From a bacterium (lineage in GTDB: Bacteria > Planctomycetota > UBA1135 > UBA2386): a DNA stretch of 64,000 nucleotides. Position 1 is the stretch's first letter; each line of letters begins with the position of its first letter. The notes under the pieces were generated by a model. The model was not told where the DNA came from and searched no databases. It saw nothing but the letters and a program-made list of their open reading frames with translations. Below are positions 1,838-61,121 of this stretch, one piece after another. Position numbers and translations under genes: made by a program. The stretch lies in assembly GCA_024743115.1 (NCBI GenBank), contig JANSXC010000001.1, positions 491,628 through 555,627 on the forward strand, in the 5' to 3' direction.

Positions 1838-4351
1838 ATGGAACTCCGCCTGACCGGCTGTCTCTCCGCGCTGATGCTCACCACGATCGGGGTGGCCCAG
1901 TCCCCGATCCTGCTGAATGGGCAGATCTGGGACGGCAACGGTGGCCCGTTGCTGAGCGGGAGCGTGTACCACGTGGTCGGTGGGCCGGGGAACTGCGGCA
2001 TTCAGGTGCCGCCGAACCAGACGCTGACAGTGCAGCCCGGTGCGGTCATCAAGGTGGATGGCTGCGTGACGATCTCGGGGCATCTGCATGCCGTCGGGAC
2101 ACCCCTGCAGAAGATCGAGATCACGTCGATCCACGACGACGCCGCGGGCGGTGATACGAACGGCAATGGCGGTGCGACGGTTCCGCAGGCCGGCGACTGG
2201 AGCACGATCGAGTTGTTCGGAACGATGCAGCTCGAGCATTGTCGGGTGCGCTACGGCGGCGGGAACAACAATGCCGCCTTCTCGTTGCGCAATCAGGTGG
2301 CGACGCTGCGGGATTGTCTGGTGGACCGTGCGCTCGCCGCCGGCATTCGTGACGCGCTCAACGCGACCATCGAGGATTGCCACTTCGAAGACCTCGGGGG
2401 CATCGCGGTCGACGGCATCGACTTCAAGCGCCTCGATCAATTCAACGACAACACTGCCGTGAACTGTGCCGGCGGCGAATACGCGCGCATCACCGACGCG
2501 GTGCAGTTGACGGTGGACGTGACCATGGCTGCGCGGCACTCGATCAACGGCAGTGGGGTCTTCGTCATGGACATAGGCTCGCCCCGATCACCCCGCGTGA
2601 TGCCCGGTGCGACGTTGACGATGCCGGCCGGCACGGTGCTCAAGGTCAAGAATCCGTCGGGGCTGCTCACGTCGGCCGGCGGTCGCATCGATGCGCAGGG
2701 TACGGCCGCGAACCCGGTGGTGATCACGTCGATCCACGACGACGATTACGGCGGTGATACGGAGAACGACGGCAACGCGACCTCGCCGGCGCGGGGCGAC
2801 TGGTGGCAGGTGCAGTTGCAGCAGGGCGATGATTCGTCGTTCCAGAACACAATCATCCGATACGGCGACAGCCCGGCCGCCGTCGTGCTCTCGGGGTCTT
2901 CGGCGCAGTTCGTCGACTGCACGATCGAGCAGAGCTTCGGCGACGCGATGCTCTTCAACAACGTCGCGACCCCGCCCGCGAGCCTGCGCGACTGCCGCAT
3001 TCGTGAGAACGGGGGGCGCCCCGTTCGGGACATGGCCTGGACCGAGCTCGAAGGCTGTCGCGGCAACACGACGAGCAACAACGGCGGCGGCGATCAGTTC
3101 CATGTCGCATCGGGGTTCGTGACCGCTCGCGCGACGATCGACCCGGGCCATTACCCGGGCGAGGTGCTCGAGGTCGCCAATCGGATCACGATCAACAACG
3201 GCGGCGCGCTCACGTTCGAGGCCGGGGTGATCCTCAAGTGGACGTTGCGGAACTTCAATACGGGCATCAACGTCAACGGCGGCGGGGAACTCAACCTCAA
3301 CGGCACCGCGCGCCGACCGGTCGTGCTGACGTCAATCCGGGACGATGCGTGGGGTGGCGACAGCAACGGTGACGGCAACGCGACCCAGCCCGCGCCGGGC
3401 GATTGGGAGCGGCTGTGGGTCGGCGGCGGCAGCACGATGGCGCTGGGGCGCGCCGAGAACACGCTCATCCGCTACGCCGGGCGCAGCAGCAATGCGATCG
3501 AGTGCGGCTCGGCGGTGTTCGAGTTGCGCCAGGTGCGGATCGAGCACCCCGACAACGACGGCATCCGGCTCGATCGGGTCGGGGTTGCCGACAACCTGGT
3601 CGTCTTCGATGCGGCCGATGACGGCATCCAGCTCAGCAACACCACGTTCGACCTGCGCCATGTCACGGTGGCGGGTTGCGGCGGGGGCGGCGTGCACCGG
3701 ACGGGCGGTTGGAGCGGCACGGTCCGCAACTCCATTGCTTGGAACAACGCGGGCGGCAACTTCGTCGGCCTCACGGCGGCCGACGTCCGAGCCAGCAACG
3801 GTGGGTTCGCGGGCCAGAACGGCAACCTCGACGTCGATCCACAGTTCGTGAATGCTGCGTCCGGCAACCTCGGGCTGCAATCGGGTTCGCCGTGTCTGGG
3901 CGTGGCCGATCTCGCCACCGCGCAGCTCGTGGCCAGGGACATGGCCGAGACGTCGCGGCTGCAGGATCACAACCTCGCCGGCAACCCGTTGCCCGACATG
4001 GGCGCCTACGAACGCGCGGTCTACACGATGACCGTGACGGGTGAGCCGACGTTCGGATCGACCATCGACTACTCGCTGCAGGGACCGTCCGGTATCGGCG
4101 CGGTGCTCGTGAGCGTGGCTGCTCCGGGCGCACTCTTCGTGCCGGGCATCGGCATCGCGCTGGTCGGACTGCCGAACGTGCCGCTGCCGCCGACGGTCGT
4201 CGCGATGGGGCAGCCCGTGAGCTTCGACGTGCCGGTGGACCCGGGGTTCTACGGCGTTCGGTTCCACGCCCAGGGCGTCGGCGTCCAGCTCAGTGGCCCG
4301 CTCGTCGGTGGCTTCACGCACCTCGAGCGCAGTCGGATCCGGTTCGACTGA
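1838..4351 (+). CDS. Secreted right-handed parallel beta-helix protein with C-terminal beta-sandwich module
   Basis: Part of ORF 1433..4351; ATG at 1838 followed by signal peptide MELRLTGCLSALMLTTIGVAQ. Three internal repeats of 'TSIxDDxxGGDxxxxGxATxPxxGDW'; beta-helix style motifs. Confidence 0.8.
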   Translation: MELRLTGCLSALMLTTIGVAQSPILLNGQIWDGNGGPLLSGSVYHVVGGPGNCGIQVPPNQTLTVQPGAVIKVDGCVTISGHLHAVGTPLQKIEITSIHDDAAGGDTNGNGGATVPQAGDWSTIELFGTMQLEHCRVRYGGGNNNAAFSLRNQVATLRDCLVDRALAAGIRDALNATIEDCHFEDLGGIAVDGIDFKRLDQFNDNTAVNCAGGEYARITDAVQLTVDVTMAARHSINGSGVFVMDIGSPRSPRVMPGATLTMPAGTVLKVKNPSGLLTSAGGRIDAQGTAANPVVITSIHDDDYGGDTENDGNATSPARGDWWQVQLQQGDDSSFQNTIIRYGDSPAAVVLSGSSAQFVDCTIEQSFGDAMLFNNVATPPASLRDCRIRENGGRPVRDMAWTELEGCRGNTTSNNGGGDQFHVASGFVTARATIDPGHYPGEVLEVANRITINNGGALTFEAGVILKWTLRNFNTGINVNGGGELNLNGTARRPVVLTSIRDDAWGGDSNGDGNATQPAPGDWERLWVGGGSTMALGRAENTLIRYAGRSSNAIECGSAVFELRQVRIEHPDNDGIRLDRVGVADNLVVFDAADDGIQLSNTTFDLRHVTVAGCGGGGVHRTGGWSGTVRNSIAWNNAGGNFVGLTAADVRASNGGFAGQNGNLDVDPQFVNAASGNLGLQSGSPCLGVADLATAQLVARDMAETSRLQDHNLAGNPLPDMGAYERAVYTMTVTGEPTFGSTIDYSLQGPSGIGAVLVSVAAPGALFVPGIGIALVGLPNVPLPPTVVAMGQPVSFDVPVDPGFYGVRFHAQGVGVQLSGPLVGGFTHLERSRIRFD

Positions 4352-4356
4352 CGAGG

Positions 4357-7300
4357 CTACTTGCTGCGTCGTCGGGCGATCTCCGCTAGGCGCTGCTCGA
4401 GCCGATCCCGCGCGCCGCTCTCGAGGTCCGCCGGCGCGGCGTCGATCGCGCGTTGCTGCGTGGCGCGTGCCGCGTCGAGTTCGCCCGTCGCGAGCTGTGC
4501 CGCCGCGAGCAGATCGAGGCAGCGCCAGAGTGCGTCCGGCTCGCGGTTCTCGGCGAGCGTGACGGCTTCGCCGGCCAGCGCGACTGCGAGATGGGGGTAG
4601 ACGTCGACGTCCGTCGCCGCGAGGAACGACTGCGCCGCCGCGATGAGGTCGGCGGGCACCGCGCCGCTGTCGGTCACCGCGCTGGCGACCGTCGTTTCGA
4701 GGTTGCCCAGCAGGTCGCCGCGTTCGAGGTCGGCGAGCATCTGCACGAGGAACGACGGTCGCTTCTCGCCCGCGTCGATCCGGGCGGCGCTGAGCCAGTC
4801 CTGCGCGGCGGCGCCGTACTGGCGGTTGCGTTGATGGGAATTGTCACGACCCCAATAGCCACCGCGATGCAGCTGCAAGAAGTCAGGGCGCCGTGGATCC
4901 TCGAGCTGCGGCGCGATCCGATCGGCCGCGTCGATGCTGCGCGAGTAGAACGGAATCGCTTCGGTGAAACGCTCCGCGTCGAAGTGCAGGCGCGCGAGGC
5001 TCAATAGCGACCGGCAGAGATGCAGATGCTGCTCGGCGTCGTCGGGCCACGCCTCGAGCAGGCGTTCGCGCAGTGCGATGGCGCGTTCATAGAGGGTCGG
5101 CGCCGCGGCCGCGTCCCCCGCGCGCTGGGTCGCACCGGCGAGGTTGTTCCAGCAGGCGGCGGCGAGGTCGATGAGCTCGAGGTCCTCGGTCGCGGGCAGC
5201 AGCTCGTCGAGGATCGCCGCGGCGCGCTCGAGGCGTTCGAGTGCGGCCTTGAAGTTGCGGCGCGCGACCAGCATCTCGGCGGACTTGGCGAGTGCGTGGG
5301 CCAATACGCGCCGTTCGCCGTCCGAATCCGCGTCATCGAGCAACCCTAGGGCTCTGCGATACTGCCGCTCGGCCGCGCGGAAATCGCGCAGCTGGAAGTG
5401 GGTGCTTGCGAGGTGGCTCGTTGCAGCGCCGAGAGTGCGGCGGTGTTCGGGCACGGCCGGGTAGGCGTCATGGGCACGCTGTGCGAGTGCGACGGCGCGC
5501 TCGAGAGCGGCCTTCGCGGCGTGCGGGTCGCCGGCTCGCGCGCTCGCCCGGCCGAGGTCGGTCGAACACCTCGCGATCGCGCTCAGCAATCCGGCCTCGT
5601 CGGGCGCGGTGGTGAGTAGCTCTTCGAACGTTGCCACGCCCGCCGTGAGTAGCTCGATGGCCTCCGCGCTCCGCCCGCTCGTGAGCGTGAGTTGGCCCAT
5701 CGCATGCAGCGTCGCCGCTAGTTCACGGCCGATGTCCGTGGTCCGATCACCGCTGGCCTCCTCGTCGCTTGCCGCAGTGCTCATCGCCTGTTCGGCCGCC
5801 GACTGGATCAGGCGATAGCGCGCCAACGCCCGCTGCCAACTCGACTCCGCGGCCGTGCGGTCGCCGCGGCTCCGGTGGGCCCGGCCGAGTTCGAGGCCGG
5901 CATCGGCGCGCAGGCGTTCGAGCTGAAGGCGCGTGGCCGGGCTCGACGTCGAGTCCGGCTCGATTGTGGTCGCTGCGGTCAGCGCGGCGACGGCCTCGTC
6001 CAACCGGGCGTCGGCGAGGTGCAGGGCGCCGAGGTAGCCGAGCAGTCGGGCGCGTTCGAGGGTCTGATGGTCTCGGCGGTAGCCGTCGTCGGCGAGCTGC
6101 TGGCGCAGCGCGGCTGCCCGCCGGTACGATTCGATTGCGTCCGCGCGTCGGCCGGCGCTCACCGCGACGGTCGCGAGCCCGTGCAGGGCGCGGGCCAGGG
6201 CCTCGCGGGATTCGGGCAGCGAGTCCGCGGCGAGGCTCGCCTGCAGTCGTCCGTAGAACGCGCGTGGCGCCTGCAGCAGCCGGGTCCGCAGCTCGGCGAG
6301 TTCGGGCCGTTTCAGGATCGCGTCCTCGGCGACGCCCGTGTGGTAGTCGTCGACCGCGTCGAGGGCGAGCGTGAAGCGGGCGTCCGCCCGGGCCTTCTCC
6401 GCGAGCGCCCAGTCGAGCGCGACGCCGGTGCCGACGAGGCCCGCGACCAGGCTCAGCAGGACCACCACGCTCGCCACGACGGCGGTGCGGTTGCGGGCGA
6501 CGAACTTGCGGAGGCGGTAGGTCGTGCTCGGTGGGCCGGCGAGCACGGGTTCGTTACGCAGGTGCCGCCCGATGTCGTCGGCCAGCGCGCCGACCGACTC
6601 GTAGCGGTCGTTGCGATCCTTCGCGAGCGCGCGCAGGACGATCCAGTCGAGGTCACCGCGCAGCGCCACGTGCTGTCGCGAGGTCGTACTGGTGGGGCCG
6701 CCGTTCGATTGTCGGGTGCCTACCCGGGTCGAGGGTTTCTGTGGCTCGTGGTGGCGGATCGCTTCAATCAGGCCAGAGAAGCCGCGGTCGCGGTCGCCCG
6801 CTTCGAACGGTCGGGATTCGGTCAGAAGTTCGTAGAGCAGCACGCCGAGCGCGTAGACATCGGCGCGCGTATCGATGTCCTTGGTCGCGCCGTCGAGCTG
6901 CTCGGGTGCCATGTACTCGGGCGTGCCGATGATCTGGTGCTCTTCGGTCAGTTGCGACGCTCCGTCCCGTTCGGCGGCGATGGCCTTGGCGATGCCGAAG
7001 TCGATGACCTTCGGAAACGGCGTGCCCTCGTGCTCGGTGACGAGCACGTTCGAGGGTTTGACGTCGCGATGGATCACGCCCTTCTGATGCGCATGCTGGA
7101 TGGCGCCGCAGACCTTGACGAACAGGTCGAGGCGATCGCGCAACGGCAGGTCGTCGTCGCGGCAACGCCGGGTGATCGGCACGCCATCGACGAGCTCCAT
7201 CGCGAAGTAGGGCCGGCCGGTCGGAGTGGCGCCACCGTCGTAGACTTGCGCGATGCTCGGGTGATCCATCAGCGCGAGCGCCTGGCGTTCGGCCTGGAAT

Positions 7301-7683
7301 CGCGCGATGACCTTGCGCGTGTCCATGCCGGGCTTGAGCAGCTTGACGGCGACTTCGCGCTTCACCGGTTCGAGCTGTTCGGCCCGCCAGACGGCACCGA
7401 ACCCGCCTTCGCCGATGCGTTCGCGGAGCTCGAAGCGATCGATGCGCGCACCGGGTTCTTCGCCGAACGTCAGACTGCGGGCGATGGCGTGATCGAGCGC
7501 GCCGCTTCCGGGTGTCGCGAGGGCCGCGGTCTCGCGGGCCTCTTCGAGCAACTGCATCACGAACTCCCGCAGCTCGGTATCGTCGCCACTCTCGCGCTCG
7601 ACATAGGCGGCGCGCTGGTCACTGGGCAACTCGAAGGCGATCTCGAAGATCGGCTTGGCGGCGCGGTAGAGGGCCTGGTTCAT
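4357..7683 (-). CDS. Serine/threonine protein kinase with TM segment and TPR-like C-terminus
   Basis: IGEGGFGAVWRAEQ (G-loop), VIHRDVKPSNVLV, DFGIAKAI, GTPEYMAPEQ; TM segment followed by helical repeats; 1108 aa. Confidence 0.95.
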   Translation of the reverse strand: MNQALYRAAKPIFEIAFELPSDQRAAYVERESGDDTELREFVMQLLEEARETAALATPGSGALDHAIARSLTFGEEPGARIDRFELRERIGEGGFGAVWRAEQLEPVKREVAVKLLKPGMDTRKVIARFQAERQALALMDHPSIAQVYDGGATPTGRPYFAMELVDGVPITRRCRDDDLPLRDRLDLFVKVCGAIQHAHQKGVIHRDVKPSNVLVTEHEGTPFPKVIDFGIAKAIAAERDGASQLTEEHQIIGTPEYMAPEQLDGATKDIDTRADVYALGVLLYELLTESRPFEAGDRDRGFSGLIEAIRHHEPQKPSTRVGTRQSNGGPTSTTSRQHVALRGDLDWIVLRALAKDRNDRYESVGALADDIGRHLRNEPVLAGPPSTTYRLRKFVARNRTAVVASVVVLLSLVAGLVGTGVALDWALAEKARADARFTLALDAVDDYHTGVAEDAILKRPELAELRTRLLQAPRAFYGRLQASLAADSLPESREALARALHGLATVAVSAGRRADAIESYRRAAALRQQLADDGYRRDHQTLERARLLGYLGALHLADARLDEAVAALTAATTIEPDSTSSPATRLQLERLRADAGLELGRAHRSRGDRTAAESSWQRALARYRLIQSAAEQAMSTAASDEEASGDRTTDIGRELAATLHAMGQLTLTSGRSAEAIELLTAGVATFEELLTTAPDEAGLLSAIARCSTDLGRASARAGDPHAAKAALERAVALAQRAHDAYPAVPEHRRTLGAATSHLASTHFQLRDFRAAERQYRRALGLLDDADSDGERRVLAHALAKSAEMLVARRNFKAALERLERAAAILDELLPATEDLELIDLAAACWNNLAGATQRAGDAAAAPTLYERAIALRERLLEAWPDDAEQHLHLCRSLLSLARLHFDAERFTEAIPFYSRSIDAADRIAPQLEDPRRPDFLQLHRGGYWGRDNSHQRNRQYGAAAQDWLSAARIDAGEKRPSFLVQMLADLERGDLLGNLETTVASAVTDSGAVPADLIAAAQSFLAATDVDVYPHLAVALAGEAVTLAENREPDALWRCLDLLAAAQLATGELDAARATQQRAIDAAPADLESGARDRLEQRLAEIARRRSK

Positions 7684-7754
7684 GCGGCACAGAGTGTGAG
7701 GCGGTGGCGGTCGGAGGTCGTGCGACGCGTGATCTCCGAACGAGATGTGGCATC

Positions 7755-8342
7755 ATGTCGCACATGGCGGCGACTCCGCGCGACGACGTTACCAGGATCC
7801 TCGACGGCCTGGAATCCGGCGCGACGTCGCTCGAAGAGCTGCTGCCGATCGTCTATGCCGAGCTGCGTGTGCTCGCCGATCAGGTGATGCGCACGGAGCG
7901 GGCGGGTCACACGCTGCAGCCGACGGCGCTCGTGCACGAGGTGTTCGTGCGGCTGGCCGATGGCGATGCCGCGCTCGGCGGCTCGCGGCGACACTTCCTC
8001 GGCATCGCGGCGCGCGCGATGCGGCACCTGCTCGTCGATCACGCGCGGCGGCGGCAGGCGGACAAGCGGGGTGGCGGGCGCGCGCAGGTCACGCTCAACG
8101 GTCTGGCCGATGACGCGGCCGAGTCCGACATCGAGTTGCTCGATTTGCACGCGGCCCTCGAACGGTTGGCCACGCTCGACGAGCGACAGGCGCTCATCGT
8201 CGAGATGAGTTTCTTCGCGGGGATGTCCGGCGACGAGATCGCGGACGAACTCGGTGTGCATCGCAACACGGTCGTTCGCGATCTGCGGATGGCTCGCGCG
8301 TGGCTGCAACGGGAGCTGCGAACGGAGGACGGTCACGACTGA
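7755..8342 (+). CDS. ECF-type RNA polymerase sigma factor
   Basis: MSHMAATPRDDVTRILDGLESG...HTLQPTALVHEVFVRL...DHARRRQADKRGG...EMSFFAGMSGDEIADELGVHRNTVVRDLRMARAWL. Divergent from the kinase gene, 71 nt apart. Confidence 0.93.
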   Translation: MSHMAATPRDDVTRILDGLESGATSLEELLPIVYAELRVLADQVMRTERAGHTLQPTALVHEVFVRLADGDAALGGSRRHFLGIAARAMRHLLVDHARRRQADKRGGGRAQVTLNGLADDAAESDIELLDLHAALERLATLDERQALIVEMSFFAGMSGDEIADELGVHRNTVVRDLRMARAWLQRELRTEDGHD

Positions 8343-9434: not shown

Positions 9435-10592
9435 CTAGGGCGGCGTGAGCGTGAGGCCGACACGTTCTCCCGGAACCGCGGTCCCGGTCGGTGTGACGAT
9501 GATCTCGTAGGCCCATTCCTGGCGGCGCGGATCGAGCCAGAGGCGTTCGGGAACGGGCACGAGCGTCGGCGAGATGGACTCGATGCGGCCGACTCCGGCG
9601 GTCGAAGCATCGGGCCGCGTGATCACGACGGCGGTCGTGCGTTCGACGAGGGGGCGATCCGGCGACGGGATGTAACCGACCACTCGCGTTGGACCGGCGG
9701 CGGCGAGCGTGACCAGCGGTTGGCCGACCCGAACCCACTCGCCCTGCTGCGCGCGGATCGCCTTGACGACGCCCGCAGCCGGCGCTTCGAGAACGAGCGT
9801 GGCCGCGTCGAGCGCGATGCGTTCGAGCGTGGCTTCCTGGGTCTTGAGCCGCCACCGCCACGGCGCGAGGGTTGCTTCCACGGGCGCGGTGGTGAGGTCG
9901 CCGGGCGCAAACGAGTCCACGCGTTCCTGCGCGGTCCGGGCGCGCGCAGCCTGTTCGGTCATGAGTTTCTCGAGTTCGTCGATGCGCTTGTGCAGCGCAT
10001 CGCGCTCGGTGCGCGTGCGGACGAGATCGGGCTCACCGAGCATGCCTTGTGAGACCAGGCTCGCGAGCCGATCGGCCTCGATGCTGACGCCCTGCACCCG
10101 AACGCGGGCCTCCTCGAGTCGGGTGCGGGTGGCGAGCACTTCCAATTGGGCGACCTCGGCGGCGCTCACGAGCCGGCGATGCTCGACCGACGCCTCGAGC
10201 CCGTGCGTTGCCTGGCTCGTGCTGGCTTCGTTCGCGAGGTCCGCGCTGCGCTTGGCCATGTCGGCCCGCAGGCGTTCGAGTTCGTACGTCGCCTGCGACA
10301 GCTTGAGTCGGACGTCGCGGTCGTCGAGTCGGGCGATCACCTGGCCGGCTTCCACGGGATCGTGCAGGTCGACCAGCAGGGTCGTCAGGCGGCCGGCGGC
10401 GGGAGCGGCGATCGTCGTGACGTGCGTGTTGACGATGCCGTGAAACCGAGCTGAGCTCGGCTGCAGTCCGGCGAGCCAGATCGTGGCCGCGACGGCAACC
10501 GCCCAGACCGCGATCGACACTGCGTCTCTCGCGCGGCGGCGCAGGCGCCGGCCGAGGCTCGGCCGCGGATGACTCGGGCGCCAATCGGTCAT
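9435..10592 (-). CDS. HlyD-family periplasmic adaptor / membrane fusion protein
   Basis: N-terminal TM, 'GIVNTHVTTIAAPAAGRLTTLLVDLHDPVEAGQVIARLDDRDV' lipoyl-type half-motif, long coiled coil, 'LEAPAAGVVKAIRAQQGEWVRVGQPLVTL'. Start ATG overlaps upstream stop (ATGA). Confidence 0.85.
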   Translation of the reverse strand: MTDWRPSHPRPSLGRRLRRRARDAVSIAVWAVAVAATIWLAGLQPSSARFHGIVNTHVTTIAAPAAGRLTTLLVDLHDPVEAGQVIARLDDRDVRLKLSQATYELERLRADMAKRSADLANEASTSQATHGLEASVEHRRLVSAAEVAQLEVLATRTRLEEARVRVQGVSIEADRLASLVSQGMLGEPDLVRTRTERDALHKRIDELEKLMTEQAARARTAQERVDSFAPGDLTTAPVEATLAPWRWRLKTQEATLERIALDAATLVLEAPAAGVVKAIRAQQGEWVRVGQPLVTLAAAGPTRVVGYIPSPDRPLVERTTAVVITRPDASTAGVGRIESISPTLVPVPERLWLDPRRQEWAYEIIVTPTGTAVPGERVGLTLTPP

Positions 10593-11281
10593 CAGACCTC
10601 CTCGTGGCGGCTCTGCATCAACAGGTGAACCGAGGCCGTGCCCGGGATCGCGCGAACGTCGGTGAGCAGTCCGGCCGAGGCCTCGGGCTCGTGCAGCCGG
10701 AGATCGTAGGAGTAGTCCGTGAGTCCGGGTTCGATCGACTCGCCGGTACTCGCGAGCGAGTAGTCACGGCAGTAGTAGTGCAGGACCGCTCGCAGTTGGT
10801 CGCGGCCGTCCGCATCGTCCGGGAGCGAGAAACGCAGGACCCCGTCGTGGCTCACGCGCTGCCCGAACCCGATGCCGAACAGATAGGCGGCGACCGCGAG
10901 TGTTACACCGGTTCCCGTGACGGCCAGCACCGGGTTCTTCACGCCGACCGTGATGCCGATCGCGACGGCGAGGAACAAGAAGACGGTGTCGCGGCTGTCC
11001 TTGATCGGCGTTCGGAAGCGAATGAGCGCCAGAGCGCCGAACAGTCCGAAGGCCCGCGCGAGGCTGTCACCGATCGCGAGCATGACGACGGTCACGATCA
11101 TCGCGAGGAGCACGAGGGACTGAACGAAGGTGCGCGAGTAACTCGTGCCGTGGTGAGTCCAGACGTAGACCCACGCCAGCGGCGTGCTCAGCACGAACGC
11201 GAGCAGCATGTGGAACGCGATCGCGGGCAACGTGGGCAGATCGTGCGCCAGGTCGCCGACCTGTCGGAAGAGTTCGGACAC
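10592..11281 (-). CDS. DUF4956 domain-containing membrane protein
   Basis: Multi-TM: LALIRFRTPIKDSRDTVFLFLAVAIGITVG, typical of DUF4956; located between VTC and HlyD genes. Confidence 0.88.
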   Translation of the reverse strand: MSELFRQVGDLAHDLPTLPAIAFHMLLAFVLSTPLAWVYVWTHHGTSYSRTFVQSLVLLAMIVTVVMLAIGDSLARAFGLFGALALIRFRTPIKDSRDTVFLFLAVAIGITVGVKNPVLAVTGTGVTLAVAAYLFGIGFGQRVSHDGVLRFSLPDDADGRDQLRAVLHYYCRDYSLASTGESIEPGLTDYSYDLRLHEPEASAGLLTDVRAIPGTASVHLLMQSRHEEV

Positions 11282-11289
11282 GGCTCGGC

Positions 11290-12009
11290 CTAACCTGACT
11301 GGACGAGGCCGGCCGACGCCAGCGTGGCCACCGACCGGGAGTATTTGGAGAAGGAGCGCCGCGAGAGTTCGCAGTGTCGGATGATCGCTGCGAGCCAGTG
11401 CGGGCTGCGATCCGTGAACTTGAGCTCGAGGACCACGCGGCCCGGGATGACCGGTTCGTAACGACCGTGGGCGCGAACGATCGCTCGAGCCTCGGGCGAG
11501 GCCGCGAGGTTGCGATCGAACGTGACGCGGACGTCGGGATCGTTGCTGGCAACGAAGGCCTGGCGTTCGTAGCGCACGAGCACCCGCGGCACGGCGCGTC
11601 GCATCTGCTGCAGTCGGCAGAACTCCCGGAGCGCGGCGAGCTTTGTCGGCGCCATGTCACCGGCGGCGCTGAGGTCCCCGGTCAGCACCCGAGCGAGTCC
11701 GGCCCGCGGGACCGGGCACCGCAGCTTCCGGATCACCCGGTTCTCGCGGTACTTGACCTCGGGGTAGACCGCGCCGCGGTCGTCGTCCCCGTAGCTGCGC
11801 ACACGCAGTTTGTAGCGGGAGCGCAGGCCCTCGATCGTCTCGTAGTCGAGCGCACCGTTGCGGTTGTCGAGGTAGAGCGAGGTGACGATGTAGGTCGAGT
11901 TCCGCAGCGGTGCCGCGAAGCGGTCCGGTACCACGAACGGTACCAGGCGCTCCCGGACCTGCGTGGCGACCGCTTCCGGCACCACGAACTTGCACTCGTG
12001 ACGAGCCAG
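11290..12009 (-). CDS. VTC-domain (polyphosphate polymerase-like) protein; probable CTG start
   Basis: Translation 'LARHECKFVVPEAVATQVRERLVPFV...YIVTSLYLDNRNGALDYETIEGLRSRYKLRVRSYGDD...YPEVKYRENRVIRKLR...VLELKFTDRSPHWLAAII'. The annotated ORF starts far upstream inside cotH; no ATG/GTG/TTG found near the domain start; CTG at 12009 has GGAG upstream. Confidence 0.85.
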   Translation of the reverse strand: MARHECKFVVPEAVATQVRERLVPFVVPDRFAAPLRNSTYIVTSLYLDNRNGALDYETIEGLRSRYKLRVRSYGDDDRGAVYPEVKYRENRVIRKLRCPVPRAGLARVLTGDLSAAGDMAPTKLAALREFCRLQQMRRAVPRVLVRYERQAFVASNDPDVRVTFDRNLAASPEARAIVRAHGRYEPVIPGRVVLELKFTDRSPHWLAAIIRHCELSRRSFSKYSRSVATLASAGLVQSG

Positions 12010-12020
12010 GGCGGCTGCTC

Positions 12021-14441
12021 CTACGGGCAGATGCGGAGTTCGACGGCGGGGCTGCTGTCGAACGTGCTGCCGTCGACGGTGAGCGACTGCGCGTAGACCC
12101 GGACGCCGACGAAGCCGGGATCGTTGGGCAGGGCGGTCGTCCAAGACGCGGTGCCGGATCCGCTCAGCGGCAGCACGCCCGCGACCACCGTGTTCGTGAG
12201 AGGCAGCAGGTAGGTGACGCCACCGAGCCCGAACTGGCCGAGGTCGACGTAGTCCGGCGCGGTCGACAGGGCGCCGAGCGCGGTGCCACCTGCCGGGCCG
12301 TCCGCGATGTCGAACACTGCCGACGTGCCGATCTGCAGCGTGCCGCTGAGTGAGAGCGTCACGCCCTGGGAATCGTGGTCGAGCGCGCCGTAGGTGCGCT
12401 GGCCGCACGTGCTCGGCAGGTTCGTCGTGAGGTGCGTCGGCTGCGGGAACGTCACCCACGGCAGTTGGCCATCGAACATACGGCCCGTCGAGATGTCGGC
12501 GTACTGCTGGCCGAACTCGTAGTAGTCGGCGATGGCTTGCCCGCTGGCCGCGTAGAGCACGACCTCTTCGCCGCCCGCGGACAGCTTGAAGTTCGCGTGC
12601 ATCGGTCCCTGCGTGCCGTCCTCGTCGCACCAGATCCGCAGCACGCCGTTCGGCGCGATCTGGGTGCCCGTCGGAATCTCCCACTTCGGGCGCTCGAGGG
12701 TATCGCTGACCCACATGCCACCGACCGTGACGGTCTGATTGCTCGTGTTGTAGAGCTCGAGCCAGTCCTCGTGCTGGCTGTTCTCGTCGACGGGGCCCGT
12801 CACGTTCTGCGCGACGAACTCGTTGATTGCGATCGGCGAACTGACCGTCGGCCAGCCGATCTGCACGTGACCGCACTCGCGCTCGAGTTCGGCCGTGTGG
12901 GGCTCGTAGCTCACCGCGCCAATGGCCGTCGCGGCTTCGACGTAGTAGTCGAGCAGGGTGCCCGGCATCTGCGCGGGCAGAATCACGCCCCAGGTACCGT
13001 CGTTGGCCGCGCCGTCGCCGTGCTGACCGTCGTCGAACATCGGCTGACTCGTGAACTTGCCGAGAGCCCTGGACCAGAGGTCGACGCTCGTGGCGAGCGG
13101 CGTGGCATCCACCGTGACCGTGATCGCCTGCGTCGGGATCGGGTTCTGCGGCGAGTGCGACAGGTTGCTCAACGCGGCGCGCGGCGCGTTCACGTACGAG
13201 TTGCCGGCGAGGTAGGTGTGCCGTGCCTGGATCCACGGCACCAGGCCGGGCACCGTCTGGTTGCCCTGACCCTGACCGGTGCTCGGGATCGTGACCGAGC
13301 TGTTGAGGTTCTGCTGGAAGGCCGCCGTGGTGTAGATCTTCTTCGGGTCGGACACGACATCGTTGTAGATCATCGCGTGATACTGCTGCGCGAGCGGCGT
13401 CAGGTGCGATGGGTTGAACGTGTGCGTGATGATCGCGTTCAGGTGGGCCTTGTAGCGCTCCCGCCAATCGGCGAACACCAGCGTCCGTGCATGGGCCGGG
13501 CGGTCCGGGTTGGTCGTGTTGTAGGTCGGCGACAGGCTCGTTGATTCCGCCATCGCTTCGTTGAGATCGAATGGCAGCGTCGTGCCGTCCCCGTGGACCT
13601 CATCGATGTAGAGGAAGTGATCCTTGCCGCTGTTGCCGATGTAGCTGTCCGTTTGCGTGCACACGTTCATCACCGCCGCGTAGCGGTAGAACGAGTCCAG
13701 GTTGAACACGTCCGTCAAGACGGATTGCAGCGTGCCCGACGGCGTGTTGTCGAGTACGTCGCACATGTTCATCAGGTCTAGTCCATCGCCCTGCTTGACC
13801 CGGTACGCCGAGAAGTAGGCCGAGACGTTGCTGCCAAGCCACGTGTAGCAGCAGCGCCCGTTGCGGAAGTTGCCGGAGGTCGGAAAGCACCGGTAGCGGT
13901 TACCGTCGTTGCTGCGGAACCACTCCTTGAACATGTCCTTGTTCGGCTGTTGGACGTTGATGTAGACGCCCCAGTACGTGCCGTTGAGGTGCAGGCGGAT
14001 CCAGTTGGCCTTCGGTGCGACGCCGTGCTGGCGCATCACGTAGTAGGTGAGCGGTTCGCGCAGGAACAGCGGGTCGTGGAAGCCGTTGTTGAAGTTCAGC
14101 GAGTCGTAGCCGTAGATGTCCTGGCCCTGCACCATCCAGTCCATCTCGATGTTGAAGCTCTTCTTCTCCCAGCCCTGGTTGGGGGCCGACGGCAGGTTGC
14201 GATAGGACGTGTTGCCGCGGAACCGGACGCCGACGTTCGGGTAGGTCACGCCATCGACCGTCATGGTCGCCGCGATGTTGGTCTCGGGCTGGTAGTTGGC
14301 CTCGAGCTGCGACCACCAGTTGGGCTGCCCGAACTGCAGGTAGACGTCGCGGACGGTGCCCATCTCGTAGAAGTCGGGAACCTGGGCGGGAAGCGCGGAC
14401 ACAACGGCCAACGCCACGAATGCGGTAAGGCGAAATATCAT
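12021..14441 (-). CDS. Secreted CotH-kinase-family protein with lamin-tail (LTD) domain and C-terminal beta-sandwich
   Basis: Start ATG at 14441 (MIFRLTAFVALAVVSALPAQ). CotH-like motifs 'GVRFRGNTSYR...KKSFNIEMD', 'DSYIGNSGKDHFLY', 'LPFDLNEAMA'. LTD 'INEFVAQN...DWLELYNTSNQTVTVGGMWVSD'. Confidence 0.88.
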   Translation of the reverse strand: MIFRLTAFVALAVVSALPAQVPDFYEMGTVRDVYLQFGQPNWWSQLEANYQPETNIAATMTVDGVTYPNVGVRFRGNTSYRNLPSAPNQGWEKKSFNIEMDWMVQGQDIYGYDSLNFNNGFHDPLFLREPLTYYVMRQHGVAPKANWIRLHLNGTYWGVYINVQQPNKDMFKEWFRSNDGNRYRCFPTSGNFRNGRCCYTWLGSNVSAYFSAYRVKQGDGLDLMNMCDVLDNTPSGTLQSVLTDVFNLDSFYRYAAVMNVCTQTDSYIGNSGKDHFLYIDEVHGDGTTLPFDLNEAMAESTSLSPTYNTTNPDRPAHARTLVFADWRERYKAHLNAIITHTFNPSHLTPLAQQYHAMIYNDVVSDPKKIYTTAAFQQNLNSSVTIPSTGQGQGNQTVPGLVPWIQARHTYLAGNSYVNAPRAALSNLSHSPQNPIPTQAITVTVDATPLATSVDLWSRALGKFTSQPMFDDGQHGDGAANDGTWGVILPAQMPGTLLDYYVEAATAIGAVSYEPHTAELERECGHVQIGWPTVSSPIAINEFVAQNVTGPVDENSQHEDWLELYNTSNQTVTVGGMWVSDTLERPKWEIPTGTQIAPNGVLRIWCDEDGTQGPMHANFKLSAGGEEVVLYAASGQAIADYYEFGQQYADISTGRMFDGQLPWVTFPQPTHLTTNLPSTCGQRTYGALDHDSQGVTLSLSGTLQIGTSAVFDIADGPAGGTALGALSTAPDYVDLGQFGLGGVTYLLPLTNTVVAGVLPLSGSGTASWTTALPNDPGFVGVRVYAQSLTVDGSTFDSSPAVELRICP

Positions 14442-14642: not shown

Positions 14643-16400
14643 ATGCAGTTCTCGTTTCGCGCGCCCGGACTGGGGCGTGGCAACTCGGGTCATGAACGGT
14701 CGGGATTCGGCCCGACGGTTCTGACGGTTCTTACGGTTCTCGCGGCCCCGACGCTCGGCGGTCTCATCACGACGGACCTGCCCGCGCAGGGCCTGGTCCA
14801 TACCGGCACCGCACCGGGGGTTGCGTTGCCCTCGAGCGGTTGGACGCGCAGTCTGACCTACGGGGTCGACGGCACGATGTGGAGCCTCGTGTTCGAGAAC
14901 GACGGGTCGGGTACCGCCGCGGGTCGCACGCTGCAGTTGCACCGCTCGCAGGACGACGGTGCGACGTGGGCGTTGGTCACCGACGTGCCGACGGTTGGCG
15001 ATGGTCGCGGCGCACTCGTTTCGGGCCGGGCGTGTGACCGCCTGCACGTGACGTGGAGTGCGACGGACACGGGTTCGTACCAGAGTCTCTACTATCAGGC
15101 GTTCGATACCGCGGCCGGGCAATGGGTCGGCAGTCCGGAGCTGCTGATCTCGAGCACGTCATCGAACGACCAGTACTACGCCAACGACATTGCGATCACC
15201 GAGCAGGGCACGCTCGGCATCGTCTTCAATACGCATCGTTCGCCGACGCTCAGCGGCTTCTCGGGCTGGTCGGGCGGCCTGCTCGTGAAGCGGCGCACCG
15301 ACCCGACGTTCCAGGGCCCTTTCCGCTGCAACACCGATTCGTTCGGGATGCTCGGGAGCATGACGGCCGTGGGGGAGACGTTCCATACGACCTTCCGGAC
15401 GAATACGGGCCTCTATGGCATCCGGTACCGCGCCTACGACACCGTCGCGGCGGCTTGGGTTCAGGCTGCGGACGTGGCGCTCTATGGCAGCGGCCAGAGT
15501 TCGATGCGGGCGACGAACAGCAGCTGCATCACGCGGGACGCGACGGGCAATCTCTACGTGCTCTACTCGGTGGGTTCGCCCAACCCCGCGGGCGGCGCTC
15601 TCGAGGTCGCTTTCGCCGCGCGCAGCACCGGCTACTCCACCTGGGTCACGAGTCTCGTGGAGACCGACCCGGCGCTCGGGGCGGGGAACCTCACGTATCA
15701 GCACTACTCGCTGGCCGTCGCCGGTGACACGGTGTTTGCCGTGTTCTCGCGTGCGACCGACAACCTGGAGAGTCTTTACTTCCGAGTGCTGTCTCCTGAT
15801 CCGAACACGGGTGGCGCGACGGTGACCCCCGACCCGGCGAGCGTTGCCGCCATCCCCCTCGTGCTGACGAACGAGGCCGACTCGTTCGAGCGCGTCGACG
15901 GGCTGCGGTCGGCGGCGTTCCGCGGCGACCTGACGGTCCTCTATGGCGGGCGGCCGGCGAGCCAGGCCGCGGGCTACGTCAGCGTTCTGCGCGGCGGTGC
16001 GGCTGCCCGAACGCTGGCGTGGAGTCGCGGTTGCCAGGGCAGCCTGCCCGCGCTGCCGCGATTGGTGAGCTCTTCGCTGCCGGCGGTGGGTTCGGCGTTC
16101 TTGTACGGGCTCGAGGATGCGCCGGCCAACGCACCCGCGATCGTGTTCAGCGGCGTTGGCTGTCTGCCGACACCGCAGTCACTCGACCCTTTCGGATTCA
16201 CCGGTTGCGAGGTCGGGTTCTCGCCACTGGCCAGTCTGTTCGTGCTGGCGGATCCGAGTGGCACGGCCACGGTGTCGCTGTCGATCCCGGGTTCGCTGGC
16301 GGGTGGCTTCGAACTGCAGTTCGGCGCGCTGGTCCTGGCGCCGGGTGCGAATCCGGGTGGGGCGGTCGCGACGAACGCGCTCTCGGCGAGCGTGCGGTAG
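14643..16400 (+). CDS. Secreted hypothetical protein, possible sialidase-like beta-propeller
   Basis: ATG 14643 inside ORF 13950..16400; 'LQLHRSQDDGATWALVTDVPTVG' Asp-box-like repeat; C-terminal beta-sandwich-like region. Confidence 0.65.
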   Translation: MQFSFRAPGLGRGNSGHERSGFGPTVLTVLTVLAAPTLGGLITTDLPAQGLVHTGTAPGVALPSSGWTRSLTYGVDGTMWSLVFENDGSGTAAGRTLQLHRSQDDGATWALVTDVPTVGDGRGALVSGRACDRLHVTWSATDTGSYQSLYYQAFDTAAGQWVGSPELLISSTSSNDQYYANDIAITEQGTLGIVFNTHRSPTLSGFSGWSGGLLVKRRTDPTFQGPFRCNTDSFGMLGSMTAVGETFHTTFRTNTGLYGIRYRAYDTVAAAWVQAADVALYGSGQSSMRATNSSCITRDATGNLYVLYSVGSPNPAGGALEVAFAARSTGYSTWVTSLVETDPALGAGNLTYQHYSLAVAGDTVFAVFSRATDNLESLYFRVLSPDPNTGGATVTPDPASVAAIPLVLTNEADSFERVDGLRSAAFRGDLTVLYGGRPASQAAGYVSVLRGGAAARTLAWSRGCQGSLPALPRLVSSSLPAVGSAFLYGLEDAPANAPAIVFSGVGCLPTPQSLDPFGFTGCEVGFSPLASLFVLADPSGTATVSLSIPGSLAGGFELQFGALVLAPGANPGGAVATNALSASVR

Positions 16401-25843: not shown

Positions 25844-28084
25844 ATGACCAATCGCTGCGCCGCAATTCTGGCCACACTCACTGTCGGTCTCACTGCCGTT
25901 TCCCCTGCCGCCCAACAGGATCCGCCGACCGGCCCGGTGGCCACGCGAGCGGAGCGCATCGCCGTCCAGCGGAACGCCGGATTGTTCGAGCTGTCACCGG
26001 GGGTGCTTCACGGTGGTGGCGCGCAGTATGACGTGCGGTTTCGCGCCGCGGGCATGCGGCTCGAACCGGCGTTGGGGACGGCGGTGGCCGTGACGCAGCA
26101 TCTGTCCCTGACTCCGATCTCGGTCGGGCGCGGCGGTGAACCGGGCATCGCGTTGCCTTCGTCCGCACTGCCCGAGCAGCACGGCCGAACGGCGGTCTTC
26201 GCGCATGCCGCCGGGGTGCGCGAGCGGTTCGCGGTCGGCGTCGATGGCGTCGAGCTGTCGTGGGTGTTCGATGCCCGGCCGCCGGGAGTGGGCGACCTCG
26301 TCGTGCGCTACGAACTCGCGACCGAGATGCCGGGGCCGCGGTCGCTCGCCGACGGCGGGATCGGGTTCGGGCTCGAGGGGATCGGCGGTGTGACGATCGG
26401 CAGCGTTACCGGTATCGACGCCCTGGGCCGGAGGATCGCTGGCGGCCTGCGGTACGCGGATGGTGAACTCGAGTTGTCGCTGCCCGCGGCCTTCGTCGAC
26501 AACGCGGCCTATCCGCTCGTGCTCGATCCGGTGATCGGCCCGGAGTTCGGGATCTGGAACGGCACGCTGTACTCCGAGAACGATCCCGATTGCTCGTACG
26601 AGAGGACCCAGGACCGGTTCCTCGTGACGTTCCAGCGCGCGTTCAGCAGCACGGACATCCGCTTGCGGGCCCAGCTCGTGGACCGTGTGGGTGGGTTGTT
26701 CCAGGGCGTCCACTGGATCACGACGGGCGGCGTGTGTTTCCGCCCGCGCGTGGCGAGCTTCTCGCGGGAAGAGCGCTTCGGTGTGGCCTGGGCGTCGCGA
26801 GTCGGCAGCCAGAGCTACGTCCACTTCCGTTCGGTCTCCGTGCACGGCGGGCCGGCGTCGACCGCGATGTCGCCGACGTCGACGCTCGCGAGCGGCCCGC
26901 AGTGGACGTTGCTCGATGTCGACATCGGTTCGGAGGGCGGGCAGTTCCAGCAGGACTACGCGTTCGTGGTTGTTTGGGACGACACGGACGACGATCGCAT
27001 CTACGCGCGACGGGTCGGCATCGACTCGGCGGGCAACACGGTGCTGTGGTCGCCGTTCTCGGTGTTCAACGACAGCACCTTCAACGGCTACTCGCAGCCT
27101 GCGATCGCGCGATCGGCGGAGTCTGGCGGCAAACTCATGGTGGTTGCGCGGCGATTCTCCGGGGTCGGACCGCAGCGTGGGGTGTCGTGTGCGCTCGTCT
27201 CGGCGCGGAACAACACGGTCACGAACCGAACCACCATCGTGATGAACTCGACCGACGAGTTCTGGCATCCCGACGTCGACGGGTACGGCGACGAGTGGGT
27301 GATCGCGTGGCGCCAGAACACACTCGGCACGACGCTCTATGCTGTCGCCGTGCGGTCGGCGCAGTTCGATGGCACGAACCTGTCGTTCGGCGCGACGCAG
27401 ACGCTCGGTGGTTCGTCGCTCGTGCGGCTCGACCATCCGTCGGTCGGCTACTCGCACGGCAAGACGTGGCTCGGCTATCGCGAGAACTTCCTCGGATCGA
27501 CGGCGCTCCGCGCCCGAGGCATCGACCCGAAGTCGTGTATCTACTGTCAGGATCTCTTCACCGCCCAGGTGCCGGCGGGGGATACGCGGGTCGTCGTTGC
27601 GACGACGATGTCCGGCAACGAAACGTCTCGCCAGGAGGGGCTCGTCGTCTGGGAGGAGAACTTCGATATCTGGGCCCAGCGGATCGCCGATTACGGCAAT
27701 CAGGGCACGGTCGTCAATCTCGGGGGCGGGTGCGGCGCGGGCGGGACCCAGAGTGTGACGGCACCCAATCTCGGGATGAGTTCCATCAACTGCTCGGTCT
27801 ACGGCCTGGCGCCGACGGCCGTGTTGACGATGTTCAACTTCACGCTCACGCCGACGGTCGTGACCTGCGGAACGTGTGAGTGGCTGCAGCCGCAGGTCGC
27901 GCTGATCCTGCCGATCACCGCGTCGGGGAGCGCGCGCTTCACCTACGGCTTCCCGTGCGATCCGACGCTCGCGGGCGTGCAGTTCGAGACCCAGTGGACG
28001 ACCTACGACCCGGCGACCGCGCCGTGTGCGATCTATCCCGGGTTCGCGGTCACGGATCGCCAACTGCACACGATCGGGCAGTAG
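25844..28084 (+). CDS. Secreted hypothetical protein with C-terminal beta-sandwich module
   Basis: Signal peptide MTNRCAAILATLTVGLTAVSPAAQ; 746 aa; C-term 'CDPTLAGVQFETQWTTYDPATAPC...'. Confidence 0.75.
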   Translation: MTNRCAAILATLTVGLTAVSPAAQQDPPTGPVATRAERIAVQRNAGLFELSPGVLHGGGAQYDVRFRAAGMRLEPALGTAVAVTQHLSLTPISVGRGGEPGIALPSSALPEQHGRTAVFAHAAGVRERFAVGVDGVELSWVFDARPPGVGDLVVRYELATEMPGPRSLADGGIGFGLEGIGGVTIGSVTGIDALGRRIAGGLRYADGELELSLPAAFVDNAAYPLVLDPVIGPEFGIWNGTLYSENDPDCSYERTQDRFLVTFQRAFSSTDIRLRAQLVDRVGGLFQGVHWITTGGVCFRPRVASFSREERFGVAWASRVGSQSYVHFRSVSVHGGPASTAMSPTSTLASGPQWTLLDVDIGSEGGQFQQDYAFVVVWDDTDDDRIYARRVGIDSAGNTVLWSPFSVFNDSTFNGYSQPAIARSAESGGKLMVVARRFSGVGPQRGVSCALVSARNNTVTNRTTIVMNSTDEFWHPDVDGYGDEWVIAWRQNTLGTTLYAVAVRSAQFDGTNLSFGATQTLGGSSLVRLDHPSVGYSHGKTWLGYRENFLGSTALRARGIDPKSCIYCQDLFTAQVPAGDTRVVVATTMSGNETSRQEGLVVWEENFDIWAQRIADYGNQGTVVNLGGGCGAGGTQSVTAPNLGMSSINCSVYGLAPTAVLTMFNFTLTPTVVTCGTCEWLQPQVALILPITASGSARFTYGFPCDPTLAGVQFETQWTTYDPATAPCAIYPGFAVTDRQLHTIGQ

Positions 28085-28355: not shown

Positions 28356-28949
28356 ATGGTGGAGAAGGACGACCGGTGTGCCGACGCGGCCGTGGAGGCG
28401 GCTCTGGCGAGACTGCGGGCCGGCGACCAGACGGCGTGGCAGGAGATCCTGCCGCTGCTCTACTCCGAGCTGCACGCTGTCGCGCGCCGTGAGATGTCCC
28501 GGCAGTCGGTGTCGCACACGCTGCAGCCGACTGCCCTGGTCAACGAGGCGTTCGTCAAGTTGTGCCGTGGCACCGGGGTCGAGTCGGGGCAGCGCGCCGA
28601 CTTCATGGCGCTGGCAGCGACCGCCATGCGCAGCATTCTGACGGATCACGCCCGCGGCAAGTCGCGGCAGAAGCGATCGCCGGAGGGTAAGACCGTGGCG
28701 ATCTCCGAGATCCTCGACATCGCGCTCGCTCACCAGCAGGAGCGCACGCCGCTCGATGTGATCGAACTCAACGATCTCATCGAGCGTTACAAGGAGCAGG
28801 ACCCGTTGGGGGCGCGGCTCGTGGAGTTGCGCTACTTCCTCGGTCAGTCGACCGAGGAGGCCGCGGCGATCCTGGCCGTGTCCCCTCGCACCGGGCGCCG
28901 GATGTGGAGCACGGCGAAGGCCTGGTTCAAGCGCGAGCTGGCGAAGTGA
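28356..28949 (+). CDS. ECF-type RNA polymerase sigma factor
   Basis: 'LPLLYSELHAVARREMSRQSVSHTLQPTALVNEAFVKL...DHARGKSRQKRSPEG...VELRYFLGQSTEEAAAILAVSPRTGRRMWSTAKAWFKREL'. ATG 28356 chosen as start inside ORF 28245..28949. Confidence 0.92.
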   Translation: MVEKDDRCADAAVEAALARLRAGDQTAWQEILPLLYSELHAVARREMSRQSVSHTLQPTALVNEAFVKLCRGTGVESGQRADFMALAATAMRSILTDHARGKSRQKRSPEGKTVAISEILDIALAHQQERTPLDVIELNDLIERYKEQDPLGARLVELRYFLGQSTEEAAAILAVSPRTGRRMWSTAKAWFKRELAK

Positions 28950-31468
28950 CGGATCGCTGGCAGCGCGTCAGTGAGATTCATGGCGAGGCCCGCGAGCTGC
29001 CGGAGGCCGAGCGCGAGGCGTTCGTGCGCGCGGCGTGTGACGGCGACGAATCGTTGTTCCACGAAGTGATGTCCCTGTTGACGGTCGACCTCGACAGCGG
29101 CGAACTGGAGCCGGCGGAGCCGCCGGTCGACGAGGTCGGCGCGAAGGACATCACGGGGCGGGAACTGGCGGGGCACCTGCTCATCGAAGTCCTCGGTCGG
29201 GGGGGCACGGGCACCGTGTTTCGGGCGCGGGATACCAGGCTGCAGCGCGAGGTGGCGGTCAAGGTGCTCGAAGCCGGCATCACGACGACGCCGTCGCAGC
29301 TGCATCGGTTTCGGTCCGAGCCGCAGCGCATCGCGCGGCTGAAGCATCCGCATATCGTCGGCATCCATGCCACGGGGCAGGAGGGGCCGACGAACTGGTT
29401 CTCGATGGATCTCATCGACGGCCATGATCTCGGGCGAGAGATTCAGCTGCAGCGCGCGCGGTCGGCCGCAGCGCTGTTGCCGCGGCCAGGGTCGGCCGGG
29501 CACGTCCACGCGGTTGCGACGCTGTGTGCGGATGCGGCCGAAGCACTCCAGACCGCGCACGCCGCGGGTATCGTGCATCGCGACGTCAAGCCACAGAACC
29601 TGCTCATCGACCGCAGCAAGCGGGCGGTGCACCTGGTCGACTTCGGGCTCGCGCGCGACGAGCGTCTGGGCAGCGTTTCGTTGACCGGCACGTTCGCGGG
29701 CACGGTGCACTACATGAGTCCAGAGCAGGCCGGTGCGGCGCAGGCCACGGTCGATGCCCGCACCGATGTCTACTCGCTCGGCGTCGTGCTCTACGAATGC
29801 CTCACGCTGCAGCGGCCGTTCCAGGGTGATTCGCCGGGCGAGATCTGGCACCGCATCCGCACCTCGGAGGCACGCCCCGTCCGGCGCATCAACCCGGCGA
29901 TTCCCCGTGATCTCGAGCTCATCGCGCAGAAGGCGATGCAGCGGGATGCCGAGGACCGCTACCCATCGGCCGCCGCACTGGCGGTGGATCTGCGGCGCTT
30001 TCTGCGCTTCGAAGCCATCGACGCCCGGCCGCCCACGGTGTGGCAGAAGACTCGCCGTGCGCTCGTGCGCCACGCCCGGGCAATCGCGATCGGCCTCGGG
30101 GGACTCGTGTTCGCCGCGCTGGGCTGGTCGTGGGCCGAGGCGTCGGCCCATCGTGGGCTGGTCGAAGACGCATCGGCGCGGTCACGGACGACGCTCGACG
30201 CGGGCGAGCGGGCGACGCTGCCGGCGCTCGTGGACCTGCGTCGTGATGCGGCGTTGCTCGCGGAAGCCGGCGGCGAAGCAGAGTTCCTGGCACGCGAGGC
30301 GGAGCGGCGGATCGCCGCGGTAGAACGCGAATGGTCGCGGGCTCGGGAGGAGCTCACGGAACGCGGCCGGGCCGAGGGCGACGACGTTCTCGTGCTGCAA
30401 GCCCGTGGGAAACTGCAGGACCTCGCGATCCTGTTCCCGGAGAAACCCGGGTATCTCGAGGAACTCGCGGACAACCCGTTTGCTCCGCGAATCAGCGTGC
30501 GGCCGGTGGACTCCGCTGGCACGCCCGTGAGCGGTGTCGCCGGTTTTGCGATGATTGATCCGATCACCGGGCAGCCGGGCCCGTTCGAGAGTCTCGGAGC
30601 ATTGCCGATCTCGCGGCTCGAGCTGCCCGTCGGCTTCCTGCGAATACGGCTCGAGGTCGCGGGCTTCGGTGTCCGCGAGTTCACCCGTCGCACGCGCCGA
30701 TTGGGGGCGGAGCTGATCCTCGCGCCGCGTCTCGCAGCTCGCGAAGTCGCCGACCCTGGCGGGGATGACGACATGGTGCTGGTTCGTTCGTCGCGAATCT
30801 CCTATCTCGACGCGAATACCCCGATGTCGGGGATCAACGGCCGCGACCTCACCGTCCGGGCGTTCTGGATCGACCGCTACGAAGTCTCGAACGCGGACTA
30901 CCGCCGGTTTCTCGCGGCTCATCCCACGCGGCGTCCGCCCGCGCACTTTGCACGGATCCCGGCCGGATCGCCCGGCGATCGATTGCCGGTCGTGTTCGTC
31001 AGCTGGCGCGATGCGCGGGACTACGCCGAGTGGGTGGGCAAGCGTCTTCCCACGCACGCCGAGTGGATGCTCGCTGCGCGCGGCACCGAAGGCCGCGACT
31101 ATCCGTGGCCCGATGCCGATGGCACATATCGCGGCAACACGCGCCACGAGCGGGTCACGGCGAAGACCTGGGACGCCAAGTTCGGGCGCTACCTCGAACG
31201 AGCCGTGCCCGTGCGTTCGTCGCGAGAGTCGGCGACCGAGTCGGGGATCCACCACCTGCTCGGCAACGTATCGGAGTGGTGCGAGAGTCTCGCGCCAGAA
31301 CTCGTGGCCGGTCAACTCGTCGCCCGGTACGGCACGCGGCTCGTCGTCGGCGAGGACTGGACGGCCGAGGATCGGGCGAGCACGTTGACGCTTCTCATCC
31401 GTGCCGGGCCCGAAGACAGTCACGCTGCCTATTCCCGCGGGTTTCGATGTGCCCGCTCCGCGCCGTAG
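28946..31468 (+). CDS. Serine/threonine protein kinase fused to C-terminal SUMF1-like domain
   Basis: GTG start overlapping sigma stop (GTGA). LGRGGTGTVFRARD, IVHRDVKPQNLLID, DFGLARDE, TVHYMSPEQ; TM; then 'VRAFWIDRYEVSNADYRRFLAAHP...YAEWVGKRLPTHAEWMLAARG...LLGNVSEWCES...SRGFRCARS'. Confidence 0.92.
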   Translation: MTDRWQRVSEIHGEARELPEAEREAFVRAACDGDESLFHEVMSLLTVDLDSGELEPAEPPVDEVGAKDITGRELAGHLLIEVLGRGGTGTVFRARDTRLQREVAVKVLEAGITTTPSQLHRFRSEPQRIARLKHPHIVGIHATGQEGPTNWFSMDLIDGHDLGREIQLQRARSAAALLPRPGSAGHVHAVATLCADAAEALQTAHAAGIVHRDVKPQNLLIDRSKRAVHLVDFGLARDERLGSVSLTGTFAGTVHYMSPEQAGAAQATVDARTDVYSLGVVLYECLTLQRPFQGDSPGEIWHRIRTSEARPVRRINPAIPRDLELIAQKAMQRDAEDRYPSAAALAVDLRRFLRFEAIDARPPTVWQKTRRALVRHARAIAIGLGGLVFAALGWSWAEASAHRGLVEDASARSRTTLDAGERATLPALVDLRRDAALLAEAGGEAEFLAREAERRIAAVEREWSRAREELTERGRAEGDDVLVLQARGKLQDLAILFPEKPGYLEELADNPFAPRISVRPVDSAGTPVSGVAGFAMIDPITGQPGPFESLGALPISRLELPVGFLRIRLEVAGFGVREFTRRTRRLGAELILAPRLAAREVADPGGDDDMVLVRSSRISYLDANTPMSGINGRDLTVRAFWIDRYEVSNADYRRFLAAHPTRRPPAHFARIPAGSPGDRLPVVFVSWRDARDYAEWVGKRLPTHAEWMLAARGTEGRDYPWPDADGTYRGNTRHERVTAKTWDAKFGRYLERAVPVRSSRESATESGIHHLLGNVSEWCESLAPELVAGQLVARYGTRLVVGEDWTAEDRASTLTLLIRAGPEDSHAAYSRGFRCARSAP

Positions 31469-59265: not shown

Positions 59266-59321
59266 GCGGAACGAATCGGGGAGTCAGGCGGCGGCCGGTG
59301 GCAGAACAGGTGGGTCAGCTG

Positions 59322-61079: not shown

Positions 61080-61121
61080 TGAGTGGCGGTTGGTCGGGTC
61101 CGGCGAGCGGTGTCGGTAAGC

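Follow-up and report, generated by a model that had tools for sequence, protein, structure and literature searches.

Four genes lie on the minus strand of a 64,000-nucleotide stretch of planctomycete DNA (the window, to which the coordinates below refer unless another locus is named), in the order CotH (with LTD), VTC, DUF4956 and HlyD. They are essentially gapless, and their families were assigned by Pfam. The genes encode an 806-aa CotH-family kinase with LTD and choice-of-anchor X matches (12021..14441), a homologue of VTC-domain polyphosphate polymerases (11290 to ~12009), a DUF4956 membrane protein with a GTG start and about four transmembrane segments by hydropathy (10592..11281), and a periplasmic adaptor of the HlyD/EmrA type (9435..10592). 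According to the junction letters, DUF4956 and HlyD share an ATGA overlap, 8 nt separate the VTC stop from the DUF4956 start, and the TAG stop of CotH overlaps a GGAG that is followed by a CTG at 12009. Among ATG, GTG and TTG candidates near the VTC start only GTGs occur (11985 and later), all of which would remove the invariant R-x-E-x-K motif. For this reason, and because the GGAG overlaps the CotH stop, CTG 12009 is the probable start. The layout agrees with an earlier sequence-only reading, which had named these genes and families and described a four-gene minus-strand operon without real gaps.

The VTC protein matched PF09359 with E=9e-37 (127 bits, the family cut-off being 23), and a profile built from ten planctomycete VTC proteins retrieved yeast Vtc4 with E=2e-20. 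The AF2 model is modest (pLDDT 62), and its best fold matches were structures of the Vtc complex. The invariant columns R68, R70 and E194 are the equivalents of Vtc4 R264, R266 and E426, residues that Guan et al. mutated to inactivate the yeast enzyme for the complex structure (PMC9911596). The other basic tunnel residues K66, K85, R148, R160, K196 and K221 are also kept, and the active-site columns are conserved at 97-100% in 110 loci. The basic tunnel residues, on whose presence the sequence-only reading had staked its case, are therefore in place. The protein has no transmembrane segment by hydropathy and no further Pfam domain, so that neither an SPX domain nor a Vtc1-type transmembrane domain was found. 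VTC is a likely polyphosphate-making enzyme.

The DUF4956 protein matched PF16316 with E=5e-16. It contains the motif RFRTPIK (11000..11020, minus strand; consensus across loci GAL(A/S)xxRFRTxxK), a candidate site of contact with a phosphate polymer. R88 and R90 of this motif are present in 100% of the aligned loci, HlyD-type and other, while K94 is present in 100% of the HlyD-type loci and 87% of the others. Clade-specific conservation in DUF4956 was considered as a sign of contact with HlyD and set aside, the comparison group being more diverse. The C-terminal domain (residues 147-222; 10616..10843, minus strand) was modelled by AF2 with a pLDDT of ~80-89, and Foldseek matched it to ACT domains and to the C-terminal domain of M. 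tuberculosis MgtC. The homologue from Streptococcus intermedius has been described likewise, in ACT-like and MgtC C-terminal terms (PMC12345266). The model of the membrane part is of too low confidence to argue for a pore, and only the C-terminal domain was used for interpretation.

The adaptor matched PF13437 with E=3e-15 and is of the EmrA/HlyD type, the closest solved chain being EmrA 4tko. It has a single N-terminal transmembrane segment (residues 25-43, hydropathy) and an alpha-hairpin insert of ~174 aa between the lipoyl halves (9798..10316, minus strand). Across the orthologues this insert ranges from 3 to 214 aa and is ~170-214 aa long in most, but it measures only 3-6 aa in L031 and L033, from two genera, and likewise in L149 and L150. 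The hairpin-less genes of L031 and L033 still lie directly 3' of DUF4956. An adaptor of this kind should not reach an outer-membrane channel, so that its constant contact is more likely with an inner-membrane protein; the two orthologues thus argue against an ordinary efflux adaptor.

No ABC, RND or MFS pump linked to HlyD was found among the tested window genes, the ORFs at ~34-38 kb and 40-58 kb being covered by the outer-membrane-channel profile only. A profile search likewise found no OEP gene in the window or in the fetched planctomycete loci; the profile was made from seven OEPs of the same genome and one of Hymenobacter, and is less sensitive than Pfam. Within that scope, the set contains the HlyD-type adaptor of a tripartite efflux pump and lacks a linked pump and outer-membrane channel, as the sequence-only reading had noted. 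On a plasmid of Hymenobacter volaticus (L195 5908-7991), DUF4956 is followed directly by a gene of the TolC/OEP family. This is a single case, with no VTC found adjoining; it was counted in favour of export because an outer-membrane component adjoins DUF4956 in another diderm.

The CotH protein matched PF08757 with E=4e-41 (kinase domain, residues 72-411; 13209..14228, minus strand) and the LTD family PF00932 with E=1e-12 (residues 535-640; 12522..12839, minus strand). Its first 19 residues are hydrophobic and signal-like, which together with the LTD match bears out the earlier description of an exported kinase, and a match to the NCBIfam choice-of-anchor X entry NF041940 agrees with a surface protein. 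It also matched structure 5jd9 (E=3e-4); in the alignment, the aspartates corresponding to B. subtilis D228 and D251 are present, and they are kept across loci in 44/44 and 83/91 of the rows with a letter. The kinase domain and both catalytic aspartates are shared with the Bacillus spore-coat kinase, from which the protein differs in being exported and in its LTD and anchor-type domains. The planctomycete phylum is moreover a non-sporulating context, unlike that of Bacillus CotH.

The C-terminus of CotH (12021-12341) carries a domain of ~100 aa that recurs in exported proteins of the lineage, in 62 ORFs from 48 loci (the window, L015, L016 and L017 among them), and is possibly a lineage-specific sorting signal. 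Within the window it was also seen at 4064-4297, ~16074-16385 and ~27761-28018, and two of the proteins bearing it (14658-16400 and 25844-28084) gave no Pfam hit above the thresholds applied. The window further contains type II secretion genes (T2SSF, T2SSE and secretin; 58039-63539, minus strand), a Ser/Thr kinase with TPRs (4357-7683, minus strand) divergent from an ECF sigma factor (7752-8342, plus strand), and another kinase with a fused FGE-sulfatase domain (28904-31468).

DUF4956 was sought in 121 relatives and in 294 genomes across the phylum, and 139 loci were placed in one tree. In 53 of these loci the gene directly 3' of DUF4956 is HlyD, and all 53 fall within a single clade of 56 rows (SH-aLRT 99); in none of the 83 rows outside it does HlyD adjoin DUF4956. 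The proposed linkage of HlyD with the other genes is thus conserved, and the tree is better evidence for it than Fisher values because the species are related. The HlyD-less members of the clade comprise a real loss (L034, with neither HlyD nor CotH in the 18 kb around it), a contig that ends just after DUF4956 (L172) and a locus with the order DUF4956-VTC (L184). The clade covers 13 family codes (f1, f5, f6, f8 and nine outside the order), and f2 adds an HlyD-linked locus too short for the tree (L065), giving at least 14 families in total. For the phylum sample the HlyD result covers only the best-scoring loci (L169-L192), which were the ones fetched. Most DUF4956 clades are without HlyD, so the adaptor is unnecessary for the general function of DUF4956.

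Nearly all HlyD-type loci whose sequence extends far enough have VTC immediately 5' of DUF4956, and the order VTC-DUF4956-HlyD is fixed, on one strand, across loci. Of the 294 phylum genomes, 72 had both VTC and DUF4956, six VTC only and two DUF4956 only. A single 518-aa frame at L061, which looks like a VTC-DUF4956 fusion, proved on comparison with L141 to be an artefact of an ambiguous base followed by out-of-frame reading. One further DUF4956 match (G205:C1:191720-192262), interrupted by two TAG codons and one TAA, is probably a decayed copy.

The distribution of CotH was different. CotH was scored in the 32 HlyD-type loci with enough flank (at least ~3.4 kb of upstream sequence): 13 have it directly upstream in the same orientation, seven have it close by in another arrangement, and in 12 the fetched sequence does not contain it. 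Most HlyD-type loci from beyond the order, whose flanks were ~1.5 kb, fall outside this count. In the family of the window itself it was upstream in 10 of 13 loci. The core of the unit is therefore VTC-DUF4956-HlyD and not CotH, which is an optional, lineage-dependent part of the HlyD-type loci.

The source assembly (6.95 Mb in 53 contigs, ~90% complete) yielded four VTC, four DUF4956 and six CotH genes. They include four VTC-DUF4956 pairs: one in the window, two on contig 39 and one on contig 53. The three pairs outside the window are accompanied by CotH, with long C-terminal regions that resemble beta-helix repeats, and by no HlyD, so that the operon described here is the sole HlyD variant among the four sets. 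A separate PPK1 is also encoded, and the VTC-DUF4956 set need not therefore serve ordinary cytosolic storage.

CotH, a polyphosphate polymerase and DUF4956 are known as accessory genes of Gram-positive pel clusters (PMC7112168, PMC12345266), in which, as here, the same three families share one operon and CotH is exported. Those sets sit with pelDEADAFG and with DUF4832 or DGC/PDE genes; here pel genes are absent, the related loci can do without CotH, and HlyD is a fixed part of the unit, in third place. The trio was reported as not found outside pel loci (PMC12345266). Here it does occur outside them, which corrects its tie to pel. The statement in the sequence-only reading that the three families have no clear function is itself dated, since deletion phenotypes exist for the CotH and DUF4956 homologues of the S. 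intermedius pel cluster (PMC12345266). For the complete VTC-DUF4956-HlyD cassette, no published version was found in the open-licence literature.

From the gene order, the conservation, the residues and the families, we infer catalysis by VTC, a channel in DUF4956, docking of HlyD and polyphosphate as cargo. At a probability of roughly 45%, and hence tentatively, VTC would make polyphosphate inside the cell, DUF4956 would pass it through the inner membrane, and HlyD would extend or gate the path. The polymer would be made from ATP at the inner face of the cytoplasmic membrane, and oligomers of DUF4956 would take the growing, strongly negative chain across by way of the RFRTxxK motif, the ACT-like domain perhaps sensing a ligand. 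HlyD may dock on DUF4956 from the periplasm, in the manner of EmrA and AaeA on their non-ABC partners, and lead the chain to the periplasm or through it; a TolC-type channel encoded elsewhere would be optional. The exported CotH, usually co-expressed in the family of the window, probably acts on surface material.

A precedent for this coupling is the yeast VTC complex, which joins synthesis to translocation through transmembrane helices lined by Lys and Arg (PMC9911596). The planctomycete set shares with the eukaryotic complex (Vtc1/Vtc3/Vtc4) the VTC catalytic domain and its key residues, and a separate membrane partner would be expected; it differs in having no SPX domain, DUF4956 in place of the Vtc1 transmembrane domain, and an HlyD that has no counterpart. 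Similarly, the adaptor shares with EmrA and AaeA the single N-terminal transmembrane segment, the split lipoyl domain and the long hairpin, and non-ABC inner-membrane partners of these proteins are known; here, however, the neighbour is DUF4956, no pump or outer-membrane channel accompanies it, and the hairpin is missing in two orthologues. Besides the yeast precedent, the points that favour a polymerase coupled to a translocase are the fixed gene order, the single HlyD clade, the co-occurrence of VTC and DUF4956, the invariant Vtc4-equivalent residues, R88, R90 and K94 of DUF4956, and a VTC without a transmembrane segment of its own. Against it count the failure to find an assayed bacterial VTC in the open-licence literature, the low-confidence membrane model of DUF4956, the many DUF4956 clades that do without HlyD, the loss of the apparent VTC-DUF4956 fusion as evidence, and the VTC-gene deletion mutants of S. 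intermedius, which still aggregated and for which no change in Pel was reported (PMC12345266).

The main rival is an envelope regulator, in which DUF4956, with an MgtC-like membrane part and an ACT domain, would sense a metabolite and, with VTC and CotH, tune the production or cohesion of exopolysaccharide, HlyD transmitting or stabilising this effect in the envelope. It draws on the S. intermedius mutants, where loss of DUF4956 gave more Pel and less aggregation and loss of CotH gave less Pel (PMC12345266), on the ACT-like and MgtC C-terminal fold, and on the surroundings of the trio in Pseudobutyrivibrio, where it adjoins polysaccharide genes, and in Planococcus, where a glycosyltransferase is near. 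In contrast, the flanks that were read around HlyD-type loci of planctomycetes consist of unrelated genes, without any evident polysaccharide cluster, and a regulator leaves unexplained an export adaptor fixed 3' of DUF4956. Service to Pel by the window trio was rejected on location, PelG of the same genome being on a contig that carries none of the four VTC-DUF4956 sets. We consider such a regulator unlikely, at perhaps one chance in a few.

Distinctly less probable is a VTC that acts as a triphosphate-tunnel enzyme with another product, as a triphosphatase or in the phosphorylation of another polymer, the cassette then exporting or modifying that product. The VTC model does match tunnel enzymes that are not polymerases, 6yp4 and 3sy3 among them, and the open-licence literature searched yielded no bacterial VTC whose activity had been measured; the fold matches to these enzymes are weaker, however, Vtc4 outranks every other match by far, and its catalytic residues are kept. 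That HlyD simply serves an efflux pump encoded elsewhere, as ordinary adaptors do, with no functional tie to VTC-DUF4956, is highly improbable despite its normal EmrA/HlyD-type sequence and the 17 OEP matches elsewhere in the genome (all on other contigs), given a linkage kept across 14 families with one DUF4956 clade and hairpin-less orthologues that hold the same position.

The earlier proposal of an envelope system that makes or moves polyphosphate and modifies surface proteins is thus supported in part. The HlyD linkage and the catalytic residues of VTC and CotH make an envelope system related to polyphosphate a reasonable reading, but CotH is not obligate, and its presence directly upstream in only 13 of the 32 flanked loci makes the modification of surface proteins a lineage-dependent add-on. 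Polyphosphate exported by a dedicated VTC/DUF4956/HlyD secretion machine, in which HlyD would carry the chain across the periplasm, might even be the phosphoryl donor of the extracytoplasmic CotH kinase, which would otherwise have no obvious supply of ATP; we regard this as a long shot. As a compact, phylum-wide unit of three genes, the cassette bears on the questions of polyphosphate export in bacteria and of the joint role of VTC and DUF4956.
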